This document shows, in pieces, positions 1-34,008 of a stretch of DNA of 34,008 bases. Below the pieces are notes generated by a model. That model was not told the origin of the DNA, searched no databases, and saw only the letters and a list, made by a program, of their open reading frames with translations. The translations under genes and the position numbers were made by a program. This stretch comes from a virus, in the IMG/VR virus record IMGVR_UViG_3300032323_001427, positions 1-34,008 of that record; one strand, given 5' to 3'. Every line of letters starts with the position of its first letter. Position 1 is the first letter of the stretch.

Positions 1-627
1 AAAATCTATATCTGTATCTATATCATTTGGATTATACTTCTGTTCCCTCCAAGACATTCCACCATAATGTTTGAAATATTTATTTTCTAGATCGACATCT
101 CCAATCGATAATTCAGATTTTATTACATCTTCAAACATAGTTGAACCAATATCATAAACTCTTTCACTCGGATTTATTTTTTTACTTCTGATCGGATCAA
201 AAAATTGAATGTTGTATTTTTTCAGAGAGTGCAGGTCCATGAAACAATACCATGGTTCTATTCTTGGGTATAATTTTTTATTACCGCAATCTCCAACAAC
301 TTTACCCATAAGAGTCAAACCTCTTTCTTTAAATTTTTCAAAAGGCTTTCTAAAATCTTGTAAAAATAATATGTCAGTATCCACTAATAACACATTACGA
401 GTTGTAATATTAGATAGTCCTAAATTCACCCCATTCCCATGCGTTCCACTTGGAAGATTTAAATGTCTGATATTATTTTTTTCTAAAATATTATTCGATT
501 CTTCTTCAGTTGAAGTATTTACTACTAATATATCTGGAAGTTCGGCACACACTAATTTAAGACTTTTAATCAAATTTATGACAAGCGTGGGTGTGTTGTA
601 ATTACAAGTTAGAATTGTTAAATCCAT
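1..627 (-). CDS. Glycosyltransferase, GT2-like (3' end outside window)
   Basis: This minus-strand frame opens at an ATG (625-627) and stays open for 209 codons to the left edge, so the C-terminus is missing. It begins with LTILTCNYNTPTLV, the first beta strand of a GT-A fold glycosyltransferase. It continues to LVDTDILFLQD, where D83 and D85 form the expected DxD sugar-nucleotide/metal motif. The middle (GTHGNGVNLGL) resembles the usual G-x-G-x-x-x-N-x-G loop of GT2 enzymes. It lies one base downstream of the methyltransferase gene and is the last visible gene of a four-gene operon. Family GT2 is likely; donor and acceptor cannot be read. In this phage the acceptor could be a virion protein or a host surface glycan. 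Confidence 0.8.
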   Translation of the reverse strand, partial: MDLTILTCNYNTPTLVINLIKSLKLVCAELPDILVVNTSTEEESNNILEKNNIRHLNLPSGTHGNGVNLGLSNITTRNVLLVDTDILFLQDFRKPFEKFKERGLTLMGKVVGDCGNKKLYPRIEPWYCFMDLHSLKKYNIQFFDPIRSKKINPSERVYDIGSTMFEDVIKSELSIGDVDLENKYFKHYGGMSWREQKYNPNDIDTDIDF

Positions 628-628
628 A

Positions 629-1207
629 TTATATATTCTTTAAAAAATTAACAACCCATTCTTCTAAATCCGCAGTTGTTTTCTTATTATTTGCTATCAA
701 ATTTACAAAATCGCCATATGATATATTACTATACGAATTAATTTCTTTATTGTTGAATATTTGGGTAAGACCCATGTCTGGAATATATGTTAAAAAATCC
801 CGTTCTAATATGATGAGGTCTGATAAAAGTCTAAAACCATCTCCGCAATAACCGGGAATGGTGAATTCGATATTAGGTGGAAATAGATCATGTATAAATA
901 TTACTCCTCCTTCGTTTAATGCTTTAACACTATTGTTGTAATCTAATAATACTTGTTCATAAGTATGACCGGCATCAATATAGATAATATCGAATTTATG
1001 TTTATTTATTTTAAAAAATTCATCAGTAGTCATAGTATATGTAGCATTATGATTGTTCATATCTACTGATATTTGACTTTTAAATCCGTCAACTTGTTTA
1101 AAATTATTCCCAACATTTTCTAAATTTTCATATCCTAGTTCTAGGTATGACATATTTATCTTATGCTCTGGCGGTATTCGTGTTAATGTATTATGCAGTA
1201 TGCTCAT
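629..1207 (-). CDS. Class I SAM-dependent methyltransferase
   Basis: A 192-residue protein with a Rossmann-type methyltransferase layout. YLELGYENLENVG at residues 21-33 fits motif I (E23-x-G25). The acidic residue ending strand 2 is D49 (ISVDM). FDIIYIDAGHTYEQV (D78, H81) matches the strand-4 motif of the Methyltransf_24-like family, and GGVIFIHD (100-107) matches strand 5. It overlaps the upstream glycosyltransferase by 17 bases and is followed one base later by another glycosyltransferase, so it is probably translated from the same mRNA. That neighbourhood suggests methylation of a sugar or glycosylated product, as in many glycan loci; this is inference. The fold is clear, the substrate is unknown. 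Confidence 0.75.
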   Translation of the reverse strand: MSILHNTLTRIPPEHKINMSYLELGYENLENVGNNFKQVDGFKSQISVDMNNHNATYTMTTDEFFKINKHKFDIIYIDAGHTYEQVLLDYNNSVKALNEGGVIFIHDLFPPNIEFTIPGYCGDGFRLLSDLIILERDFLTYIPDMGLTQIFNNKEINSYSNISYGDFVNLIANNKKTTADLEEWVVNFLKNI

Positions 1208-1994
1208 TTTTTATTTTTTTTAATATATTTTTAAGTTCTTGTTCATTCACTAATGGAGTTTGCTGCGGCAAATGCCCATGCTTTTCTATAAAAATTTTAT
1301 CCGCATCAGTTACAAACATATGAGCCTTTGGATTTGAAAGTATAGATGATGTTTGAGGGGACCATTCTTCATCACCAATAAATTCCCAAGAATTTTCAAT
1401 GTCTGCAAAATACCAAAAAGGTGGGTGCATCCCGAATTTTATGATCTCATATGTATGATCGACATGTTCACATGCATTATAATATCTATAATCAATAAGA
1501 CCGACATTTTCTAAGCATTTTTTAGAATAATAAGAAAAAGCACCAACGCAATGAGGGTACAGCGGAATTTTAATTGACCCATAATTTATAATCACTCTGG
1601 GATTTGGATCACGATTGGAGTCAAATGATTTATTCATAACCCCATGTTGGGAAAAATTGAAATGCTGGATTCCCGATATTTTGGATGCTTCTATATATTT
1701 GTGAAACACTGTCACATCTTTAATAAAGATATCATCTTCAATCAAAAAGATGTGATCACATCCTTTATCTAACAAATGTTGTATAGCGACATTTTTTGAT
1801 TTACCAACACCTAAATTAGTCTCATTATTTACAAGAAAATAATTCCACCCTTTTAAGTTATCAATGCGCTCACCATCATTCACAATGATGAGATCAATGA
1901 AATTACAGCTCGATATGCTGTTTAATAATTTTTCCAGTAAATGAGGGCGATTGTATGTAACAATGCCCACTCCTATTTTTTCATTACTTTCCAT
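1191..1994 (-). CDS. Glycosyltransferase family 2-like protein
   Basis: A 267-residue GT-A type glycosyltransferase. GVGIVTYNRPHLLEKLL (8-24) is the typical N-terminal strand-helix, IIVNDG (36-41) the second strand, and NLGVGKSKNVA (60-70) the nucleotide-binding loop. IFLIEDDIF has E86-D87-D88 in the DxD position. EHVDHTYEIIKFG near residues 175-190 is the usual acceptor-side acidic motif. It overlaps the kinase gene by 11 bases and the methyltransferase by 17, so the operon is compact and no Shine-Dalgarno site is visible. It probably transfers a sugar onto a virion or cell-surface acceptor; which one cannot be told. Family call is secure, function is not. Confidence 0.85.
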   Translation of the reverse strand: MESNEKIGVGIVTYNRPHLLEKLLNSISSCNFIDLIIVNDGERIDNLKGWNYFLVNNETNLGVGKSKNVAIQHLLDKGCDHIFLIEDDIFIKDVTVFHKYIEASKISGIQHFNFSQHGVMNKSFDSNRDPNPRVIINYGSIKIPLYPHCVGAFSYYSKKCLENVGLIDYRYYNACEHVDHTYEIIKFGMHPPFWYFADIENSWEFIGDEEWSPQTSSILSNPKAHMFVTDADKIFIEKHGHLPQQTPLVNEQELKNILKKIKNEHTA

Positions 1995-2724: not shown

Positions 2725-2752
2725 AATTTATCAGACATTATTCAGATTTCAA
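2725..2752 (-). promoter_or_regulatory. Early-type promoter of the kinase-glycosyltransferase operon
   Basis: On the minus strand TTGAAA (2752-2747), a 16-base spacer and TAAATT (2730-2725) are followed by six bases and the ATG of the kinase gene. It belongs to the TTGACW-N16-TAnnnT set found repeatedly in this window and overlaps the 3' end of the HNH gene. The spacing predicts a leaderless transcript. Confidence 0.6.
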
Positions 2753-3403
2753 GAACATTTCCCAATCTTCCAGAAAATCAACAAAAACATATCCATTTTT
2801 CGGTTTTTGGACAGGTTTCATCAATTTTAATCGACGACCTTGCGTGCTCAGCCAATTTTTTAAATCGGGATCTCTCGGGTTGAATGTTTTTAAATCGCAC
2901 TCTTCTAGTAATTTATCACCTTTCCACATATTCAGCTCTCTGTGACAGGCTACTTGGTTTTCCCAAGTGTTTGGGTTTGATTTATATCTAGACCTCGGAT
3001 AGATGTGATCCAATGTTAAAGTTTCTTTTTCTAACTTCAATCCAGTGTATCCGCAGATGTTTTTATCTCTCTTGAAAATGTTGTGTTTGGTTGGAAAAAG
3101 CACCTTTTTATGGGGTATCCCTTCGTATGTAGCACACACCACCACAGATGGAATTCTTACATCTCCTCGTGTTGTTTTTATTCGATTGTCGTAGTCGCGA
3201 ATTGGAAGACCCATCCAATCTTTTGCGGTTTTTATGACATTGAAATATGAAATGGTTTCAAGTTTGTTGCCATCGGTATCTTGGTCATAAACGATGTCCA
3301 AAGGATGCACAACTTCGGAAAATATGTTTCCAAAGGTTTTCTTCACATCACAAGTTCCGACAGGGAAATAGAACCTGTTTAGAACCAAAATTTTATCATT
3401 CAT
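2738..3403 (-). CDS. HNH endonuclease-like protein
   Basis: A 221-residue protein whose C-terminal half holds an HNH nuclease domain. LTLDHIYPRSR carries D132-H133, TWENQVACHRELN carries N149 and H154/N158, and KGDKLLEE is the usual ending helix. In related phage HNH proteins two CxxC pairs bind zinc. Here the first pair reads C117-x-x-T120 and the second is reduced to C153, so structural zinc binding may be lost. The N-terminal half, with RIPSVVV (83-89) and a KVLFPTKHNIFKRD linker, matches the common phage arrangement. It could be a free-standing homing nuclease or a phage-encoded nuclease acting in DNA metabolism. It is divergent from phoH and has a good early-type promoter. Confidence 0.8.
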   Translation of the reverse strand: MNDKILVLNRFYFPVGTCDVKKTFGNIFSEVVHPLDIVYDQDTDGNKLETISYFNVIKTAKDWMGLPIRDYDNRIKTTRGDVRIPSVVVCATYEGIPHKKVLFPTKHNIFKRDKNICGYTGLKLEKETLTLDHIYPRSRYKSNPNTWENQVACHRELNMWKGDKLLEECDLKTFNPRDPDLKNWLSTQGRRLKLMKPVQKPKNGYVFVDFLEDWEMFLKSE

Positions 3404-3510: not shown

Positions 3511-5292
3511 ATGAGCGTAAAACGTGCTGCGCGAAAGCGCAAAGAAGTGCCTGACCTCGAAAGAGAATTCATGGAGTCATACAAAAAGAATTTCAATCTT
3601 AACAATCTGAAATTGAAAAAACACTTCCCGTTTACAGACAACCAAACGAGGTGTTATTATACCATCAACGACAACAACACAAACATGATGTTTATTGATG
3701 GTCTAGCGGGAAGTAATAAAGCGCAGCCTTTGTCTGAGCCTATACCGACTCCGAATGGGTGGGTTACAATGGGGGATCTGTCGGTTGGGGATGATGTATT
3801 TTCTGTAAATGGAAATCCTACTAAAATTACAGGAATTTTTCCTCAAGGAGAGAAAAAAATATATAATGTTATGTTTTCAGATGGGTCATCGACTAGATGT
3901 TGCGGTGATCACTTGTGGAACACCACTAGTTATAGTAATAGAAATAAATGGAAAACGAAAAGAGAAGGCGGTAAACGAATTAAAATAAAAAAACTCGAAG
4001 ATGTTTATAATACCTTGACAACTGATGAAATACGAAATTCTCTTTATCACAAAGGTAAAATAAATCACATGATACCTATAATCACCAATCCGGTATCATA
4101 TAATAAAAAAGAATTACCAATAGATCCATACGCATTTGGGTTATTGTTAGGGGATGGGTCTTTTAGAACCACGCCTATAAGAATAACCACATCCGACGAT
4201 GAAATTTTAAATTATTTAAAAAATCTATACGGAGATAATCTTAAACACTTACAATCTTATGATTATAGGATACTTGAGTTGACAGATATTATCAAGAATA
4301 TGGGATTGTATAAATTATACAGTCATGAAAAATTCATACCAGATATCTATAAGCTATCATCTATCCATGATAGGATAAATTTATTACAAGGAATATTGGA
4401 TTCTGATGGATGTGCGACAAAATCTGGCTCAGTTATATTTACAAGCGCATCTAAACAACTTACATTAGATGTGCTCGAAATTGTAAATTCCCTCGGTGGT
4501 ATAGCTCATATGTCTAGTAGATCTGGGATGTTGAATGAAATTGAATATAAAATTTGCTATAGATTATGTATAAATCTACCATCCGATATATTACCATTTA
4601 AATTAACTCGGAAATTGCAAAGATATACACCAAACACGAAATATAGTCCTAAACGATACATTGTAAGTGTGGAGCCTGCTGGAGTGGAACAATGCCAATG
4701 CATAATGGTTGAACACGATAGTCATTTATATCTAACAAAAAATTACATTGTGACTCACAATACATACATGTCCGTATATGCAGCCCTTGAGCATTTAAAA
4801 GAAGGAAAGTGTGAACAGATCATTTACATCAGATCCGTTGTGGAAAGCTCATCCAGAAGTTTGGGTGCATTACCCGGAGAATTGGATGAGAAATTCGGTC
4901 CATATACACTACCACTCATGGATAAGCTTGCTGAGATTGTGGACGAGACCAGCACTCATGCGCTGTTCAATCAGAAATACATCAAAGCAATACCCGTAAA
5001 CTTCGTTAGAGGTTTAACATTCCACGATTCATTTGTCATCATCGATGAAGCTCAAAACTTAACCAGAGGTGAATTAGCTACAATTCTAACTAGATTTGGT
5101 AGAAATAGCAAATACATCATTTGCGGTGACGCAAAACAAAGTGACATCAAGGATTCTGGATTTGAAAAAGTATTTCAATTATTCAACACTGAACATTCAA
5201 TTAAAAATAATATTCATTGCGCCAAATTTGATGTCGATGATGTTGTAAGAAGCCCAATACTCAAGCATATCACTCAAGTATTGGGCGTTTAA
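3511..5292 (+). CDS. phoH: PhoH-like ATPase precursor interrupted by an intein
   Basis: The 593-residue precursor splits into two PhoH exteins and a 347-residue intein (residues 71-417). Joining the exteins gives about 246 residues, the usual size of phage PhoH-like P-loop ATPases. The spliced P-loop reads GLAGSNK followed by T, so the intein sits between the Walker A lysine and threonine. The Gly normally before that Lys is Asn here. FVIIDEAQN (D512, E513) is Walker B, and ICGDAKQSD fits the later sensor motif. PhoH-like proteins are widespread in marine phages; an RNA-helicase or nuclease-associated role is proposed but unsettled. The precursor should lack ATPase activity until splicing rebuilds the P-loop. 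It ends five bases from a convergent small gene. Confidence 0.9.
   Translation: MSVKRAARKRKEVPDLEREFMESYKKNFNLNNLKLKKHFPFTDNQTRCYYTINDNNTNMMFIDGLAGSNKAQPLSEPIPTPNGWVTMGDLSVGDDVFSVNGNPTKITGIFPQGEKKIYNVMFSDGSSTRCCGDHLWNTTSYSNRNKWKTKREGGKRIKIKKLEDVYNTLTTDEIRNSLYHKGKINHMIPIITNPVSYNKKELPIDPYAFGLLLGDGSFRTTPIRITTSDDEILNYLKNLYGDNLKHLQSYDYRILELTDIIKNMGLYKLYSHEKFIPDIYKLSSIHDRINLLQGILDSDGCATKSGSVIFTSASKQLTLDVLEIVNSLGGIAHMSSRSGMLNEIEYKICYRLCINLPSDILPFKLTRKLQRYTPNTKYSPKRYIVSVEPAGVEQCQCIMVEHDSHLYLTKNYIVTHNTYMSVYAALEHLKEGKCEQIIYIRSVVESSSRSLGALPGELDEKFGPYTLPLMDKLAEIVDETSTHALFNQKYIKAIPVNFVRGLTFHDSFVIIDEAQNLTRGELATILTRFGRNSKYIICGDAKQSDIKDSGFEKVFQLFNTEHSIKNNIHCAKFDVDDVVRSPILKHITQVLGV
3721..4761 (+). mobile_element. 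Intein with LAGLIDADG homing endonuclease in PhoH
   Basis: The in-frame insert starts with Ala71 (AQPLSEPIPTPNGW) and ends with IVTHN417, followed by Thr418 as the +1 extein residue. MGDLSVGDDVF fits block A and DGSSTRCCGDHLW the block B region. FGLLLGDGSF (about 209-218) and LLQGILDSDG (291-300) are the two LAGLIDADG helices, with KFIPDIY between them. CQCIMVEHDSHLYLTKNYIVTHN-type spacing gives blocks F and G. An alanine at position 1 means splicing by the Ala1 route, where the +1 residue (Thr) of the C-extein is attacked directly. All required motifs are present and the frame is open, so both splicing and homing look functional. Confidence 0.93.
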
Positions 5293-14549: not shown

Positions 14550-15746
14550 ATGTTTGTAAAACCATTCGCTTCTCCGTTTCCAAAATCTCCGTCTAGTTCT
14601 AAGCAAACAACTGCGAATGTTGCTAGATCTCAGTCTAAATCAACTAGATATGTTAATTACATGGCTGATAGACAGGGATGTGGGATGTGGAGAATCGGAT
14701 GGGCTGAAATGCACATGAATATGTGCAATTTGGGCGACAGTACTTCTCTGACTAGCATGGTGCTGAACAAAGATTGGTACAGAAATGTAAGAACAGTCAA
14801 GCTGCAAAGACAGGCTTCGTCAGAACAAAAAGAGTTTGTCAAATTTTTAAAAAGCATTCAACCAGAATGTGGATTTAAATTGATGTATGAAGTCGATGAT
14901 GTTGTGTTTAGGGAAGATATTCCAGACTACAACATCTACAAAGAGTCATTTGATAATGATACCATCCGACAGAACTGCATCGATATAATAAACATGTGTG
15001 ATGAGGTCACTGTGACCTGTAATTACATGAGAGATCTTTACAAGTTAAGAACTGGGAAGAAAGAAATCACAACAGTTCCTAATTTCCCGCCATATTGGTG
15101 GATAGGTCATCATTATAATTACAAAGAAATTATCGATAATTTCGATAAAAATAAGAAAAAGCCACGAATTGTATATGCTGGATCTGGAGCACACTTTGAT
15201 GTTGGTAATAAAACCAATCAAGAGGATGATTTCACACATGTTCTTAAATTTATCACTGAAAATGTCGATAAGTATCAGTTCGTATTCATTGGAGCAGTTC
15301 CCCCACCGTTGCAGAGTTTGGTATTCAGTAAAAAAATCGAATTCCACCCTTGGAAAAACTTAATGCAGTATCCAAACTTCTTAAGAAGCCTCAAGGCGCA
15401 ATTATTCATCGCTCCATTGCAGGATAATAATTTCAATAGAAGCAAATCAGACATCAAATACATCGAAGCTGCTTGTTTGGGCATTCCTTGCTTGTGTCAA
15501 GATATGGTAACTTATGGTAATGCGTTGTCTGATTTAAAATTCACCAACAGTGATGATCTAGCATATAAAGTTGAAAAGCTGCTAAACTGGAAAAATAGAT
15601 CCAAGTATTATTCACTGGTTCCTGAATTGAGAAATATTGGATCTCAGCGATTCTTGGAATTGGATGACAATATTGGCGCATTCATGGAAGCCTTGAACAC
15701 AGATTACGGCGATCCCGCTAGAAAATTGCTGCCAAGATGGAATTGA
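14550..15746 (+). CDS. Glycosyltransferase, GT-B (GT4-like)
   Basis: A 398-residue protein. The Ser-rich, probably flexible N-terminus (1-35) is followed by an N-terminal Rossmann domain (GCGMWRIGWAEM). The acceptor-side segment LMYEVDDVVF and VTVTCNYMRDLY come next. The C-terminal domain begins RIVYAGSGAHFD. RSKSDIKYIEAACLGIPCLC (297-316) is the nucleotide-sugar site of GT4-type enzymes, with K299 and E306 in the key positions. It lies between genes 46 and 43, within DNA metabolism, which makes DNA-base glycosylation worth testing. T4 alpha- and beta-glucosyltransferases are also GT-B and of similar length, but specific homology is not evident by eye. Glycan or protein targets are equally open. 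Confidence 0.75.
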   Translation: MFVKPFASPFPKSPSSSKQTTANVARSQSKSTRYVNYMADRQGCGMWRIGWAEMHMNMCNLGDSTSLTSMVLNKDWYRNVRTVKLQRQASSEQKEFVKFLKSIQPECGFKLMYEVDDVVFREDIPDYNIYKESFDNDTIRQNCIDIINMCDEVTVTCNYMRDLYKLRTGKKEITTVPNFPPYWWIGHHYNYKEIIDNFDKNKKKPRIVYAGSGAHFDVGNKTNQEDDFTHVLKFITENVDKYQFVFIGAVPPPLQSLVFSKKIEFHPWKNLMQYPNFLRSLKAQLFIAPLQDNNFNRSKSDIKYIEAACLGIPCLCQDMVTYGNALSDLKFTNSDDLAYKVEKLLNWKNRSKYYSLVPELRNIGSQRFLELDDNIGAFMEALNTDYGDPARKLLPRWN

Positions 15747-20161: not shown

Positions 20162-21939
20162 CATTTGGTCATCCAATGCCAATAATTGATTGGCTTTTTG
20201 AATCCTCTATCGTTGTATTTTGAATTATCTCCTTTGAATTTGGAATCTCGTTGCAGTTGATTTTCCATATAATGGAATGCCGCATCGTAAGATTCTTGTA
20301 CAGGTTGCTCTTCAGCTGGCTGCTGTTGGACTGGTTGTTTATCAGCCATCATAGCCTTATCCGATTTTGCCATCATGCGATCAATTCTATGAGCTGCTGT
20401 CGCTTCTAAGTTTTGTAGTTGCATTTTAATAACATCTTTTACTTGTTGGAATTTGTCTCTATTTTCGGGCTTATCAAACACCGCTCTAACGACTCGATTT
20501 TCGATACCGCTAATTTCATATTGGTTGTCATCATCACCAAGATTACCGTAATCAATGCCGACTAATCCATCATGTATGCTTTGCAAAACTTCAGTTTCAT
20601 TTGGCGCAGATCCTAATGATTTTATTTTATCTACAACTTTAGTTTGAAAATCATCTGATGTAAATGCCATGCCTTTTTCATTATATTTGTCTAAAAACTT
20701 ATCGATGAAGTCTTTAATCAAATTAAAGCTTGTAACTGTCATAGCATTAACCGCTTTTCTTGGAATATTCACCGATGGTGCTGATATTGAATTTATATAT
20801 GCTGGCTTGGATGGGTCAAATGCTGTGTTGATATTTTTTCTAACATCAACTCCCCAAATAGCCAATACTGTTTCTAGATATTCATTGACATCAAATTTTT
20901 CGTCATCCGCATCAATTTCATCTGAAATTTCTCCAGTGTCTTCATACTTCTTTAATGTTGGCGATAATGCATTTGGATCTTTGCGTTTCTTAATTGCGTG
21001 TCTTTGAATTTTATTAAGATTTTTAAGTTCTTTTATCAACGGTTCCACTTCATTTCTGATAGTACTATAATCAGATCTTGTCATATTGGTGGCTTTTAGG
21101 AATATATCTTCCGATTGCATAGCTGTAGCTGACCTATGTCTATCTGAAAGACGATAGTAACGAAATGTATCCATTGTTAGTTTATCTTTAAACTCCTGTG
21201 AACTTATTATTTCTTGTCTTTTTTTGACATCTTGATCAATTTCAGATGATCTTGGATTTGAAACAAATAATATTTGATATGTATCTTTCAGACCTCTATC
21301 ACTGGTATCATTACTGTTTGTTACAAATTTAATCACATCCAATGGACCCAACACAGCAGCATCGGAATCATCTGGATTATTAATCATATCAAATCTTTGC
21401 TGTAATAATCCATCTAACTTAGAAGGATTGGATTTGGTTTTTGATATATTATCCATAATCTCCATTAACTCTTTTTGTACTGCCTTGGGAAGTTGCAATT
21501 TAGAAAACGCATCAGATGATAATTTTTTAAAGTCTGGATAATACACACTATACGCGATGGCTTCGGCTAATCTGAATGCAGAATCGTAATGGGGATCTGA
21601 TTCAGAATCTGGATATAGATCTTCAAATGTTGCGATGTCGAAATCTTTAGATTTTGGATATATTTTTTTAAATGTATCGTGTACAAGGCTGTTGATTTGT
21701 TTATTAATGGCTGGAAGTGTATATTTAAACTCTCCTGTCATATCGTTGTATACTCCAATAACAGTTTTTCTAAATAAAACTTCTCTCGCTGATGATGATC
21801 CTAGTGGATCTATCTCTCTAAGTATTGGACCCACCTGACTGAATGTATTATTCAAAACTCCATATGTCGTTGGCTGTTTGGCCATTTCGTCGATTTGCTC
21901 TAAGCATTCAAGCAAGTAATCAAATTTGATTTTTTCCAT
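20161..21939 (-). CDS. Large hypothetical late protein with prohead-type leader
   Basis: 592 residues read from the ATG at 21937-21939; 20 further upstream codons are open, but GGTAAATA five bases before 21939 marks the start. The N-terminus MEKIKFDYLLECLEQIDEMAKQP has IDE in the (L/I)-x-E pattern of the prohead protease. The rest is mostly helical and charged, without membrane segments or an enzyme motif I can identify. A Gln/Pro linker (QPVQQQPAEEQPVQE, about 540) precedes a C-terminal patch rich in Lys/Tyr/Trp. Late timing, size and leader suggest an internal capsid protein, possibly injected with the DNA as T4 Alt is. No ADP-ribosyltransferase motif was seen. Function unknown. Confidence 0.65.
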   Translation of the reverse strand: MEKIKFDYLLECLEQIDEMAKQPTTYGVLNNTFSQVGPILREIDPLGSSSAREVLFRKTVIGVYNDMTGEFKYTLPAINKQINSLVHDTFKKIYPKSKDFDIATFEDLYPDSESDPHYDSAFRLAEAIAYSVYYPDFKKLSSDAFSKLQLPKAVQKELMEIMDNISKTKSNPSKLDGLLQQRFDMINNPDDSDAAVLGPLDVIKFVTNSNDTSDRGLKDTYQILFVSNPRSSEIDQDVKKRQEIISSQEFKDKLTMDTFRYYRLSDRHRSATAMQSEDIFLKATNMTRSDYSTIRNEVEPLIKELKNLNKIQRHAIKKRKDPNALSPTLKKYEDTGEISDEIDADDEKFDVNEYLETVLAIWGVDVRKNINTAFDPSKPAYINSISAPSVNIPRKAVNAMTVTSFNLIKDFIDKFLDKYNEKGMAFTSDDFQTKVVDKIKSLGSAPNETEVLQSIHDGLVGIDYGNLGDDDNQYEISGIENRVVRAVFDKPENRDKFQQVKDVIKMQLQNLEATAAHRIDRMMAKSDKAMMADKQPVQQQPAEEQPVQESYDAAFHYMENQLQRDSKFKGDNSKYNDRGFKKPINYWHWMTK

Positions 21940-21944
21940 ATTTG

Positions 21945-21952
21945 TATTTACC
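21945..21952 (-). promoter_or_regulatory. Late-type promoter of the 592-residue protein
   Basis: Minus strand GGTAAATA (21952-21945), five bases, ATG at 21939. It is only a few bases from the -35 of the divergent early promoter at 21956. Confidence 0.55.
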
Positions 21953-21955
21953 AGA

Positions 21956-21983
21956 TTGACAAGCAAAAAGCTGATGATAGCAT
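21956..21983 (+). promoter_or_regulatory. Early-type promoter of the 21989 glycosyltransferase
   Basis: TTGACA (21956-21961), 16 bases, TAGCAT (21978-21983), five bases, ATG at 21989. It decides the start against a longer open frame beginning at 21926. Confidence 0.55.
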
Positions 21984-21988
21984 TGGAT

Positions 21989-22684
21989 ATGGAGTACAAA
22001 AAGATCGCATTTTTCTCAGCGTCTCAAAAAACAGATGCAAAAGACACCACGCTTTTAAAAAGCACTGAAAATTTCGATATAGATATCGATATAGCATTCG
22101 CTCTAGAGAATAAAGAATCATTATCGATTGTGTATAATAAAGCTATACAACACGCATTGGAAGAAAATTGGGATGCGCTGGTATTCGTACACGACGATGT
22201 TGTTTTAGAGCATGATCCACGACCCAAATTGGCGAAATTATTTGAGAAATTTGATCTAATAGGCGTTGCTGGTGCTTCATCAGTTGAAATAAAAACACCA
22301 GCGCTTTGGCATTTGATGGGAGGCGGGTTTAACTCTGGAAAACTACACGGAGCAGTCGCTCACGGGACTTCCGAAAAGAAGCAAATGACTCCATTCGGAT
22401 CATATCCCCATCGCGTTGTCATGATTGATGGTGTGTTCATGGCGATGAATCGAACTGTGATGGAAAATGTGAAATTTGACGAAACCAATCCATCCAAGTT
22501 TCATTTTTACGACATTTTATTCGGATTAGATGCGTGCTTTAAAAAATTAAAGATTGGGGTCGGTGATATTAGTATAACGCATGAATCTCCGGGATTAAAA
22601 AATTTTACTGATGATTGGATAGAAGGTGAAAAATATTTTTTAGAAAAATATTCAAAATATCACGGCAAGATTCTAGCTGTCTGA
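21989..22684 (+). CDS. Glycosyltransferase-like protein (GT-A)
   Basis: 231 residues. MEYKKIAFFSASQKT leads to LSIVYNKAIQHALEENWDALVFVHDDVVL, where H68-D69-D70 matches the HxD-type metal motif of the Glyco_tranf_2_5 family (PF13712). LIGVAGASSV, a Gly-rich loop (HLMGGGFNSGKLHGAVAHG) and MIDGVFMAMNR are consistent with the acceptor half. FHFYDILFGLDACFKKLKIGVG and ITHESPG give the closing segment. It is flanked by a divergent late structural gene and convergent with a homing-type endonuclease (25-base overlap of the 3' ends). The acceptor is unknown. The upstream promoter is of the early type, so it is presumably made before virion assembly. Confidence 0.75.
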   Translation: MEYKKIAFFSASQKTDAKDTTLLKSTENFDIDIDIAFALENKESLSIVYNKAIQHALEENWDALVFVHDDVVLEHDPRPKLAKLFEKFDLIGVAGASSVEIKTPALWHLMGGGFNSGKLHGAVAHGTSEKKQMTPFGSYPHRVVMIDGVFMAMNRTVMENVKFDETNPSKFHFYDILFGLDACFKKLKIGVGDISITHESPGLKNFTDDWIEGEKYFLEKYSKYHGKILAV

Positions 22685-23667
22685 TTTTCCTTATAAATAA
22701 TCAATTTTCCATTATTTTTATCCATTAATTTTTTAGATATCTTTATCTTTTTAAGATCATACAAATATTTTTCGCGATATGACATACCTTGTTTAATCAT
22801 AGGAACTTCTCTATATGTGATAGATTGATCTATGGTCGGATGCCAAAATTTACCATCATACTCTAATATAAGTTCGATATCCTCGCAATTTTTGGATTTC
22901 AATCCATCAACGGTTTTAAATTTTACTAAATCATAAAAATAAATTTTATTTTCGAATCTTATATAAAATTCATTCTCACCGTATAAACAAAGATTTTTAT
23001 CTAGATTGTTTTTAATAATATAATTATCTATAAATTTTGTAGCTATTTTAGAATAACCATTTATGGGATTATGATCGAGGCCATATTTTATAAACATTGT
23101 CGCTTTTCGTTTTTCTGAGGATATGTTTTTCTGACTTACACTGCGATTTAAATGCGTATATTTTATTTTATTTTTTATTTTTAAACATTCTGATGGATTT
23201 GTTTTACCATATTTTAATATATTAGTTTCTCTGATTATTTTTGATAGGGTAGAAGACGCCATGCCAAATCCGCCATAATTTTTCGTAATTGTTTTTATTT
23301 TTAAATCATGAACAGTTTTACTTTTTGATGGATTATCTACGCCGTAGTTGCGCATGCAAGTTTTAGATTTTTCAATCTGAACATTTGAATCATTGTTTGA
23401 ACATTCAGTTGAGCAAAATCTTCTATAATGCCTGTCCGCTTTTATTAAGTGGTGTGGAAATTTTACTTTATTACAGCACCCTGTTCGTTCACATACTGGA
23501 ACCGATGTAATGTCATTTAGTAGACAATAAATTCTTTCCATATTTGTCGCGGTTATATCCAGAAAATTTGTAATATTTAATAGATTCGTATAATAAGGTT
23601 CTTTTAAAACTTTATTTTTGCTTATATTTCCATTATAGATAGAAGAATAATATTCTTTTGTGGTCAT
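22660..23667 (-). CDS. Vsr-like (EDxHD-type) putative homing endonuclease
   Basis: 335 residues from the ATG at 23665-23667. Residues about 55-95 have VCERTGCCNKVKF and FCSTECSN, a zinc-finger arrangement. The middle holds two copies of a NYGVDNPSKSKTVHDLKIKT-like unit (the second LKYGKTNPSECLKIKN), a DNA-binding repeat of phage endonucleases. The C-terminal LILEYDGKFWHPT resembles the Vsr core VDGCFWHGH, followed by a long YREKYLYDLKKIKISKKL helix. Vsr-like folds define the I-Bth0305I class of homing enzymes. Upstream the frame is open for 22 more codons, but CTAAATA five bases before 23667 supports this start. It is AT-richer than its neighbours, as expected for a recently acquired element. 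Function inferred from motifs. Confidence 0.65.
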   Translation of the reverse strand: MTTKEYYSSIYNGNISKNKVLKEPYYTNLLNITNFLDITATNMERIYCLLNDITSVPVCERTGCCNKVKFPHHLIKADRHYRRFCSTECSNNDSNVQIEKSKTCMRNYGVDNPSKSKTVHDLKIKTITKNYGGFGMASSTLSKIIRETNILKYGKTNPSECLKIKNKIKYTHLNRSVSQKNISSEKRKATMFIKYGLDHNPINGYSKIATKFIDNYIIKNNLDKNLCLYGENEFYIRFENKIYFYDLVKFKTVDGLKSKNCEDIELILEYDGKFWHPTIDQSITYREVPMIKQGMSYREKYLYDLKKIKISKKLMDKNNGKLIIYKENQTARILP

Positions 23668-23672
23668 ACTAT

Positions 23673-23679
23673 TATTTAG
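23673..23679 (-). promoter_or_regulatory. Late-type promoter of the Vsr-like gene
   Basis: Minus strand CTAAATA (23679-23673), then five bases to the ATG at 23667. Confidence 0.45.
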
Positions 23680-23870
23680 CATTTTTATGTATGTATCATA
23701 AAAATGAAATATTGAAAATATTAAGATCGTCATTTTTGATGGATGCCAATACTATAAAATTCGATCATCTGGCTTATAAATGGTTTAGAAATGTGCGATA
23801 AGTGATTGACTTCTGCTCCTACGAGTGTAAAGTGAATGGAAAGAGGGAGAACGTTGGTTTTTGAATAAAT
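23680..23870. other. Intergenic region between the Vsr-like gene and gene 41
   Basis: About 190 bases between divergent genes. It contains the early-type plus promoter at 23806-23833 and a 20-codon open frame (23739-23801, starting MDANTIKFDHLAYKWFR) without promoter or ribosome site, which may be a remnant or chance. TTATAAATGG at 23774 resembles a late promoter but no gene starts nearby. No hairpin terminator was seen. Confidence 0.4.
23806..23833 (+). promoter_or_regulatory. Early-type promoter of gene 41
   Basis: TTGACT (23806-23811), 16 bases, TAAAGT (23828-23833). Unlike most of the set it lies 37 bases before its ATG (23871), so this mRNA should have a leader of about 30 bases, which includes a purine-rich GGAAAGAGGGAG. 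Confidence 0.6.
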
Positions 23871-31946: not shown

Positions 31947-32186
31947 ATGAAGCAAGTACACATTGAACGAAAAGACGGAACTGTAGAACAAATGAACGCT
32001 GTATCCTTCGCCCGTTGGGCGTCTTTGATCGAAGCATTTGATCTAATTTCCGAAAAAGCGCATGAATTGGATGTCAAACTGGATAAATTTCTAAAACCAG
32101 TTGCAATAGAACACTATATTGAAGAGAGATTTCCTTCTATTTTACATGATGTTGAATATGAGCTTCAGCATGGTTTGCTTAGCTGA
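31947..32186 (+). CDS. Small hypothetical protein
   Basis: 79 residues: MKQVHIERKDGTVEQMNAVSFARW, then two helices (SLIEAFDLISEKAHELDVKLDKFL and PVAIEHYIEERFPSILHDVEYEL). It starts ten bases after the previous gene and its 3' end overlaps the convergent glycosyltransferase by eight bases. No signal peptide or known domain. A weak TGGACG-N17-TAAGAT lies in front but is poorer than the other promoters. Confidence 0.6.
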   Translation: MKQVHIERKDGTVEQMNAVSFARWASLIEAFDLISEKAHELDVKLDKFLKPVAIEHYIEERFPSILHDVEYELQHGLLS

Positions 32187-33003
32187 GTAATTCTCTCTCG
32201 ATTTCTTCTATTTTAGAAGATCCAACAGAATCTTTGAAGTGATTCTTGAGTTCTGTCGTGTCTAACCCCAATTCATGGAATCCGATCAAATAATTTTTAA
32301 CTCTTTGCGGCAATTCATTTGGGTAACTCACGCCAGCGGGTCTATAAAAACGGTGATTCCATCTTAAAAATGGCAAACATAGTGTCTTTTTACCATGTTT
32401 TTCGTATTTTTTATGGATATAGCCCTCTTCACCTCCGAATCCTCTAAAGTTTTTGTTGAATCCTAACCACGCATCTTTGCGACAAGAGAATAAACCCAAG
32501 CCTTGAGCGGGTATTTCAAAAGGTGGTCCATCAGGATCTTCACCGCGTTTATCGTTACCCCACACCCCCCACATATTTGATTGCCACACAAGATCAAAAT
32601 GGGTAGATACCGATCTAAGATCATCATATACAAGCGGTCCTTGTAGTAAATTTCCATCATCTTTGTTGTTGTCATAAAATTTAATTAATTTTTTAATTGC
32701 ACCGGGTTCGATGAGAACATGACTATCGATACTCATAACATACGGAGTGTCAGCTAATTCAAAAATTTTATTTCTGATAGAAGTAGATTTGAAATTGGTG
32801 AATGGTAGATACTGAATCGGTTCCTGTACCCAATCGATAAAGTCTCGTATACACTTGGAGTGATTTCCAGATGGATTATTGTCAACTACTACAAATTCAA
32901 TATCATTGAGCACTTCTTTGTGAAACATTCTTATCGCTTGTATTGTAAAATACAATCCGTCGATATCATCGTGAACAGCCATCCCAATTGTCAGTTTTCT
33001 CAT
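32179..33003 (-). CDS. GT2/GT27-like glycosyltransferase with DSH motif
   Basis: 274 residues from the ATG at 33001-33003; an ATG two codons upstream is also in frame, but the promoter spacing favours 33003. GMAVHDDIDGLYFTIQAI begins a GT-A fold. VMSIDSHVLIEPGAIKKLI carries D93-S94-H95, the DxH metal motif typical of polypeptide GalNAc-transferases. GFGGEEGYIHKKYEKHG near 190-206 resembles their GGENxE acceptor segment. RWNHRFYRP supplies a late His. It starts 13 bases downstream of a mucin-like Ser/Thr/Pro-rich protein, an obvious candidate acceptor. A run of six G (minus strand, 32570-32565) falls in the WGVWG codons. Family is clear; protein O-glycosylation is inference. Confidence 0.8.
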   Translation of the reverse strand: MRKLTIGMAVHDDIDGLYFTIQAIRMFHKEVLNDIEFVVVDNNPSGNHSKCIRDFIDWVQEPIQYLPFTNFKSTSIRNKIFELADTPYVMSIDSHVLIEPGAIKKLIKFYDNNKDDGNLLQGPLVYDDLRSVSTHFDLVWQSNMWGVWGNDKRGEDPDGPPFEIPAQGLGLFSCRKDAWLGFNKNFRGFGGEEGYIHKKYEKHGKKTLCLPFLRWNHRFYRPAGVSYPNELPQRVKNYLIGFHELGLDTTELKNHFKDSVGSSKIEEIERELLS

Positions 33004-33009
33004 TGACAT

Positions 33010-33037
33010 AATTTATCAAAAATTTAATTTTTTGCAA
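33010..33037 (-). promoter_or_regulatory. Early-type promoter of the DSH glycosyltransferase
   Basis: Minus strand TTGCAA (33037-33032), 16 bases, TAAATT (33015-33010), six bases, ATG at 33003. The -35 is a variant. It overlaps the last codons of the mucin-like gene. Confidence 0.45.
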
Positions 33038-33651
33038 TGTGTATTAATACATGATGTAGTATTAGCTGGCGGCTGTGTTGTAGCGGGTTGATTAGTTGTA
33101 GTTGGAGTCGTAGTTGGTGCTATAGTAGTCGAACTGATTGTGGATGGGTCTGTGAGGGTTTGAGCGCTTGGGATTACTACTTTGGTGATGGGAGGTAATT
33201 CAATTGGTTTTTTTGTAGTATTCTCAACGGGGGGTGGAAAAATGTATCGCACTCTTGGAGGACAACATGGTATTTTCGGCTGGACTGTTGTCGGGCTCGG
33301 TGTAGTGGGGGGGGATGTTGTCGATGTACTAGTAGATGTACTAGTAGATGTGCTGGTGGAGGTTGGAGTCGGAGTTGTTGTGGTTGATTCTGATACGGTT
33401 ATGAAAACATCTGCTGTATCTATATACGAATCATCGCTTATTCTTCTGTATTCCCAATATATATAATTGTTTCCGGGAATTAGTGAAAAATTAAATGTGT
33501 GTGATAATTCAACATAAGACTCTAGTTGAGTATAGATTACCCCACCGAAATCGTCAAATATGTATACATTGTAATAGTTTCCAGTTTCTGGAGACACTAT
33601 TATATTAACAATCAAAGGATCAGTTCCTGATAATGGAGATATATTGATCAT
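33016..33651 (-). CDS. Mucin-like surface protein with PKD-like N-terminus
   Basis: 211 residues. The N-terminal 86 residues (ISPLSGTDPLIVNIIVSPETG, then IYWEYRR) look like an Ig/PKD-type beta sandwich. A Ser/Thr/Pro-rich region follows, with an alternating Thr-Ser run at about 97-112. Next come a CCPPRVRYIFPPP block (127-139), LPPITKVVIPSAQ, a second Thr-rich stretch and a C-terminal pair of cysteines (SCINTHCKKLNF). No signal peptide. It is probably an exposed virion appendage, with Ser/Thr residues offered for O-glycosylation by the adjacent enzyme. An 8-base G:C tract (33307-33314) lies in its TSPPTT codons. The next gene upstream is a paralogue. Confidence 0.65.
   Translation of the reverse strand: MINISPLSGTDPLIVNIIVSPETGNYYNVYIFDDFGGVIYTQLESYVELSHTFNFSLIPGNNYIYWEYRRISDDSYIDTADVFITVSESTTTTPTPTSTSTSTSTSTSTSTTSPPTTPSPTTVQPKIPCCPPRVRYIFPPPVENTTKKPIELPPITKVVIPSAQTLTDPSTISSTTIAPTTTPTTTNQPATTQPPANTTSCINTHCKKLNF
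33323..33358. repeat. 12-bp tandem repeat encoding the Thr-Ser run
   Basis: Two exact copies of GATGTACTAGTA (33323-33334, 33335-33346) and a degenerate third (33347-33358). The same 12-mer with one change occurs in the neighbouring paralogue at 33995-34006. On the coding strand it reads Thr-Ser-Thr-Ser. Length variation by slippage or recombination is likely. Confidence 0.8.
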
Positions 33652-33669
33652 ACTATAAATTTTGATATT

Positions 33670-34008
33670 TTAATATCCTAATATATTACACTTTTTATCT
33701 TTGCATGGTTGTATTGAACTAGACGAAGTTTCTGTAGTCGGAGTCTGTGTTGTCTGTGTTGTCGTGGCTGTTGTCTCCGTTGTGGATGCTATATTGTCCG
33801 GGTTTGAAAGCGGGAATGATACTGGCACTACGACTTTAACGATTGGTGGAAGTGTATTATTACCTGATGGGGATTTAGTTGTTAATGATATAGGCGTCGG
33901 AGGCGTTTCTATGATCAGATCGGGGCAACTTAAACATGGATAACATGTTGTAGATACTGGAATTGGTGGATTTGGTCCAGCTGTTGTGCTAGTTGATGTA
34001 CTAGTGCT
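33670..34008 (-). CDS. Second mucin-like protein, paralogue (5' end outside window)
   Basis: The frame is open from the right edge to a TAA at 33670-33672, giving the last 112 residues. It starts in an STSTSTSTTAGP run, then CYPCLSC, PPTP, LPPIVKVVVPVSFPLSNPD, a TTETTATTTQTTQTPTTE stretch and QPCKDKKCNILGY. The order (Thr-Ser run, Cys/Pro block, LPPIxKVVxP, Thr-rich stretch, C-terminal Cys pair) is the same as in the gene at 33016-33651. The two are tandem paralogues 18 bases apart. The N-terminal domain is not visible. Probably a virion surface protein. Confidence 0.7.
   Translation of the reverse strand, partial: STSTSTSTTAGPNPPIPVSTTCYPCLSCPDLIIETPPTPISLTTKSPSGNNTLPPIVKVVVPVSFPLSNPDNIASTTETTATTTQTTQTPTTETSSSSIQPCKDKKCNILGY

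Follow-up and report, generated by a model that had tools for sequence, protein, structure and literature searches.

What would a phage do with a glycosyltransferase (GT) encoded directly behind two mucin-like proteins? This question is raised by the right end of a 34,008-nt stretch of DNA (hereafter the window), the linear virus record of a T4-like phage whose DNA polymerase shares about 31% identity with its Synechococcus phage counterparts. Considering gene order, predicted fold and relatives in phages and bacteria, it is likely that the GT O-glycosylates the co-encoded Thr-rich proteins, which would probably be virion (tail) proteins.

Gene order at the right end of the window

On the minus strand, a truncated Ser/Thr/Pro-rich ORF is followed by a Ser/Thr/Pro-rich protein of 211 aa and then by the GT, which confirms the grouping of the enzyme with two paralogous proteins that a preliminary description of the sequence had given:

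33670 to 34008, minus strand: tandem mucin-like paralogue, presumed substrate; 5' part lost at the record end, in an STSTST repeat
33016 to 33651, minus strand: mucin-like Ser/Thr/Pro-rich protein of 211 aa, presumed substrate; variable head of 86 aa and C-terminal CCPP...CKKLNF region
32179 to 33009, minus strand: GT27-like glycosyltransferase; ORF of 276 aa, with a preferred start at 33003 (MRKLTIG) giving 274 aa

The second Met of the GT ORF, at 33003, is the start in the relatives of the enzyme and leaves 12 bases between the GT and the mucin-like ORF. The 211 aa protein consists of the 86 aa head and a 125 aa tail with 61% Ser, Thr or Pro (37 Thr, 16 Ser and 23 Pro); the head, formerly described as Ig/PKD-like, remains plausible as such by eye but finds no match in Pfam. 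In the truncated upstream ORF (34008-33670), 112 residues are visible, 52% of them Ser, Thr or Pro. As it is 41% identical to the 211 aa protein (E 3e-22, low-complexity filter off) over an alignment that takes in a non-repetitive Cys/Pro region, the tandem paralogy already proposed is real. Neither the 211 aa protein nor five members of the GT family, used as protein queries, had a match among 50,697 records of isolated phages.

Regarding viral relatives, a profile search with the GT gave 57 viral loci, 36-99% identical. L005, L006 and L008 have the same order of first mucin-like protein, second mucin-like protein and GT, the last preceded by a gap of about 12 bases, and the second mucin-like protein and the GT are kept in L007, up to the end of that locus. 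Since all three genes and their synteny are conserved in L005, L006 and L008, the arrangement in the window is not due to chance. Between the window and L005, its nearest relative, the GT is 98.5% identical and the mucin head only 49%, which fits a head that is exposed and evolves fast; the homologues in L006 and L008 lack these 86 aa altogether. The window record ends at 34008 within the STSTST repeat and L005 also ends inside a low-complexity Ser/Thr repeat, so this end is probably an assembly break, which would account for the absence of tail genes from the window. In L008, the mucin-like genes and the GT come after tail genes whose products have Collar and Mtd_N domains, and this position after the tail-collar genes is the one observation suggesting that the mucin-like proteins may be virion fibres. 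In a further locus (L012, 7998-9278 and 5898-7349), a GT27-like enzyme carries an extra C-terminal domain, possibly discoidin-like. Before it come an apparent fusion of a GT with an FkbM-like methyltransferase and a sulfotransferase-like gene, and the whole group follows a protein of 808 aa that has a Thr/Ser tail.

Fold, motifs and the other glycosyltransferases of the window

By sequence, the GT has a single Pfam family above cut-off, PF00535 (38.9 bits). Searched against the PDB, the single protein found no match, a sequence profile (A3) found mainly generic GT2 enzymes, with GalNAc-T10 at an E of 0.098, below significance, and sub-profiles of the C-terminal half found no GT27 match. Whereas modelling from 5 sequences reached a pLDDT of only 55, AlphaFold2 with 41 viral sequences gave a model with a pLDDT of 96.1 and a pTM of 0.92. 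With this latter model, the best 50 Foldseek matches listed against the PDB are all polypeptide GalNAc-transferases (GT27), the enzymes that glycosylate mucins in animals, with E values down to 5e-13, and VIA-align ranks 1-29 are all GalNAc-T entries (Z 20.2-24.8), the best one aligning 253 of the 274 residues at 2.7 A. The chondroitin polymerase K4CP (Z 18.9), GlfT2 (18.3) and RmlT (18.3) come next. The closest solved structures are thus not small-molecule or polysaccharide GTs, with a gap between the GalNAc-transferases and the latter, and the structural comparison supports the original proposal. A structural relation to GT60 is seen weakly, via phage models annotated "Glycosyltransferase, GlcNAc".

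The D-S-H and GGEE-type motifs originally reported are both found, as DSH (D93-H95) and FGGEE (189-193), together with HRFYR (217-221). In a set of 109 relatives, non-redundant at 85% (35 viral and 74 bacterial), D93, H95, D41, G190, E193, W215, H217, F219 and N237 are invariant; DxH stands in place of the canonical GT2 DxD in 109/109, and the FGGEE loop has its Phe in 107/109 and its Glu in 109/109. The loop motif of GT27 is WGGEN, with an Asn at the xED position, and FGGEE has neither this Trp, which is W331 in GalNAc-T2, nor this Asn, the latter being replaced by the invariant Glu. As the xED position is the site of the catalytic base in inverting GT-A enzymes (PMC7185993), this Glu makes an inverting chemistry, and consequently a beta linkage, possible for the phage GT. 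A survey of GT-A enzymes reports the change from DxD to DxH for GT27 and GT60 alone, two families that both O-glycosylate polypeptides on Ser/Thr (PMC7185993). In GalNAc-T2, D224, H226 and H359 bind Mn and F361 is needed for peptide binding (PMC4432651). The spacing of W331, H359 and F361 in that enzyme (28, +2) equals that of F189, H217 and F219 in the phage GT; judging from order and spacing, D93, H95, H217 and F219 would correspond to D224, H226, H359 and F361.

The GT27 assignment can be maintained in part only. The phage GT shares with GT27 the closest solved folds, the D-x-H with a C-terminal His, the Phe two residues after this His and, presumably, Thr/Ser/Pro-rich acceptors; it differs by the FGGEE loop instead of WGGEN, the GT2 signature in Pfam, the prokaryotic/phage setting and the absence of a match to the ricin-type lectin domain, the protein ending at 274-276 aa. 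On account of the loop motif and the lectin domain, it is better regarded as a putative protein O-glycosyltransferase of a variant, GT27-like family than as a member of GT27. With the alpha-GlcNAc-transferases of GT60, it has in common the DxH and, presumably, Ser/Thr protein acceptors (PMC7185993), but the Pfam families listed for 41 members (E 0.1) do not include PF11397, the GT60 family.

These folds also bear on a different acceptor. Many phage GT2 enzymes act on O-antigen, and an enzyme belonging to PF00535 by sequence, whose L008 counterpart lies in the tail region, could modify the surface polysaccharide or LPS of the host, for receptor masking or superinfection exclusion, co-evolving and travelling with the tail-fibre genes. 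The nearest folds are however those of protein O-GTs and not of polysaccharide enzymes, and the same association with Thr-rich proteins is seen for the bacterial relatives, although no tail genes adjoin these in the loci examined; such a role is distinctly unlikely.

Besides the GT at the right end, the four further GTs and the methyltransferase mentioned in the preliminary description are all present according to Pfam and PHROGs:

1 to 627, minus strand: GT2 glycosyltransferase (Pfam), possibly glycan-extending; 3' part lost at the record end
629 to 1207, minus strand: Methyltransf_24 protein (Pfam), possible capping enzyme
1191 to 1994, minus strand: GT2-type glycosyltransferase (PHROG 2456/1579; Pfam)
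14550 to 15746, plus strand: glycosyltransferase (PHROG 7162), possibly linked to the glycan
21926 to 22684, plus strand: glycosyltransferase (PF13712), possibly linked to the glycan

These four GTs and the methyltransferase might build or cap a glycan of the mucin-like proteins, as the preliminary description suggested. The window also encodes a 593 aa protein (3511-5292), an unusual fusion whose residues 61-420 match P-loop families of the terminase/helicase type and whose residues 418-589 match PhoH, and, at 22660-23733 and 2738-3403, homing-endonuclease-like (DUF7487, PHROG 3339) and HNH endonuclease genes.

Virus-encoded GTs can hypermodify DNA, according to work cited in PMC12619734, and the GT at 1191-1994 matches TAGT weakly, short of the cut-off (E 0.02). 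The possibility that the GT27-like enzyme works, like TET-associated and T4 glucosyltransferases, on hypermodified phage DNA is nevertheless very improbable, since this enzyme (33003-32179) has no TAGT match and its bacterial relatives are often HprK-like fusions paired with exported-looking Thr-rich proteins.

Association with Thr-rich proteins in phages and bacteria

A genome scan gave 118 bacterial relatives of the GT, of which 80 were kept; Labrys okinawensis and Desulfofustis glycolicus are examples of cultured bacteria with such an enzyme. Their GT domain sits in proteins of about 400-1150 aa; several have an N-terminal domain like HprK-related kinase A, at 35-56 bits for a cut-off of 200, and some have further domains, e.g. 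an FkbM-like methyltransferase part. The window GT has no HprK_rel_A domain. Beside such fusion enzymes lie small proteins with a basic N-terminus, a W-x-x-P...PAHA leader and a highly variable Thr-rich tail. These PAHA-leader proteins are exported-looking and often in tandem copies (L082, L098, L124, L080, L089, L074 and other loci), and PqqD-like and nucleotidyltransferase-like genes also adjoin the fusion enzymes (L128 7490-7819, L089 6827-8050 and others). This neighbourhood is reminiscent of HPr-rel-A peptide systems (HprK-related kinase A with PqqD), with the HprK_rel_A-like N-terminus and some PqqD neighbours as common points, and with the low domain scores just given and the lack of the domain in the phage GT as differences; altogether, the bacterial loci look like a peptide- or protein-modification setting.

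For counting, a mucin-like segment was defined as 40 residues with at least 60% Ser, Thr or Pro and at least 30% Thr, and loci with GTs more than 85% identical were removed, leaving 35 viral and 74 bacterial loci; an HCN-repeat pattern applied to whole genomes gave too much noise where the GC content was high. A Thr-rich ORF lies within 3 kb of the GT in 18/35 phage loci vs. 0/36 control loci (p 1.5e-7), a statistic that the tail-region setting could inflate in phages, not in bacteria. These controls comprise 34 loci of relatives of the GT at 1191-1994, which are not near Thr-rich proteins, and two PhoH-like loci. The Thr-rich neighbour is on the GT strand in all 18 loci and is the next gene upstream in 12, with a gap of -32 to 68 bp. 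In bacteria, the corresponding figure is 33/74 vs. 1/50 regions drawn from the same genome set (p 2e-8), rising to 45/74 vs. 1/50 when PAHA-leader proteins are included (p 7e-13). The co-occurrence of both genes in other genomes, which had been put forward as a check, is therefore strongly positive relative to controls in phages and, independently, in bacteria.

The Thr-rich partners are dissimilar (T-runs, STST, TPTP, different heads), the GT relatives having such neighbours are on deep separate branches of the tree and, in L361 (7249-8100), the GT27-like gene is inverted yet overlaps its Thr-rich neighbour tail to tail. These three observations argue for function rather than inherited gene order. 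A single inherited synteny as the sole cause of the pairing was considered and rejected, given the deep separate branches.

Conversely, about half of the GT relatives have no Thr-rich neighbour within 3 kb; in L050, L056 and L061, the neighbouring protein ends in a TTTLSPTTTTPS-like sequence, a short tail under the threshold. Starting from 50 viral loci with Thr-rich ORFs (poly-Thr pattern), a GT of this family was found in 0/50 stretches examined, the control records also carry Thr runs elsewhere in the record, and L362 encodes a Thr-rich protein of 96% identity with no GT in the stretch examined; Thr-rich tails in general thus do not need the GT. Long Thr runs are also common in uncultivated-phage proteins (L235-L314) with no detectable GT of this family nearby. 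The Thr-rich segments could then be no more than flexible linkers in tail proteins, with the GT modifying something else or extending a glycan that another enzyme starts, for which other GTs are present in the window and which agrees with most Thr-rich phage proteins and about half of the phage GT relatives being unpaired. This is unlikely, as same-strand adjacency to the next gene recurs with dissimilar Thr-rich partners in phages as well as in bacteria.

A candidate prokaryotic mucin-type glycosylation

Returning to O-glycosylation of the co-encoded proteins, we infer its catalysis, acceptor, virion location and glycan function as follows. The GT (33003-32179) would belong to a GT27-like family of metal-dependent GT-A enzymes and transfer a sugar from a nucleotide donor to Thr/Ser hydroxyls in extended Ser/Thr/Pro-rich segments. 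Its substrates would be the two mucin-like proteins encoded directly upstream and synthesised in the host cytoplasm, which would probably be mounted on the phage tail, where the glycan may confer e.g. protease resistance, fibre stiffening, shielding or adhesion.

To our knowledge, the initiation of mucin-type O-glycosylation is generally treated as eukaryotic, and no precedent for phage mucin-type glycosylation was found in the open-access literature searched. Metazoan O-GalNAc glycosylation of Ser/Thr is said not to occur in bacteria, following a statement in PMC5504323. In the bacterial glycosylation of serine-rich repeat adhesins (SRRP systems), a Ser/Thr-rich protein is co-encoded with dedicated GTs (GtfA/GtfB) that place sugar on Ser/Thr (PMC6973325); the co-encoding of such a protein with its own GT is shared with the present loci, which differ from GtfA/GtfB with the accessory Sec by the single GT-A domain and the Gram-negative and phage setting; among the local genes looked at, no accessory Sec genes were noticed. 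Mycobacteriophage virion proteins are glycosylated, presumably by phage-encoded GTs (Freeman et al., 2023, as cited in PMC12619734 and PMC10955285), but, as described in these sources, at the C-termini of capsid and tail-tube subunits and not on dedicated mucin-like proteins.

The pairing of GT and Thr-rich proteins in phages and bacteria suggests that mucin-type protein glycosylation has a prokaryotic version not described before. In its broadest form, this would be a prokaryotic counterpart of mucin-type O-glycosylation, combining the metal site of polypeptide O-GTs with an inverting-type acidic residue and existing as stand-alone enzymes in phages and HprK-like fusions in bacteria; its substrates would be mucin-like virion proteins in the former and small PAHA-leader Thr-rich exported proteins in the latter, with Proteobacteria, Acidobacteriota, Actinomycetota and others as bacterial hosts. 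The arguments for and against this broader reading are about evenly balanced. If true, the existence in prokaryotes of a compact, soluble enzyme genetically paired with mucin-like substrates of its own would provide an evolutionary link from GT2 to GT27/GT60, and the enzyme and mucin-like pair would offer a tool for glycoengineering as well as a testable explanation of glycan-decorated tails in uncultivated phages.
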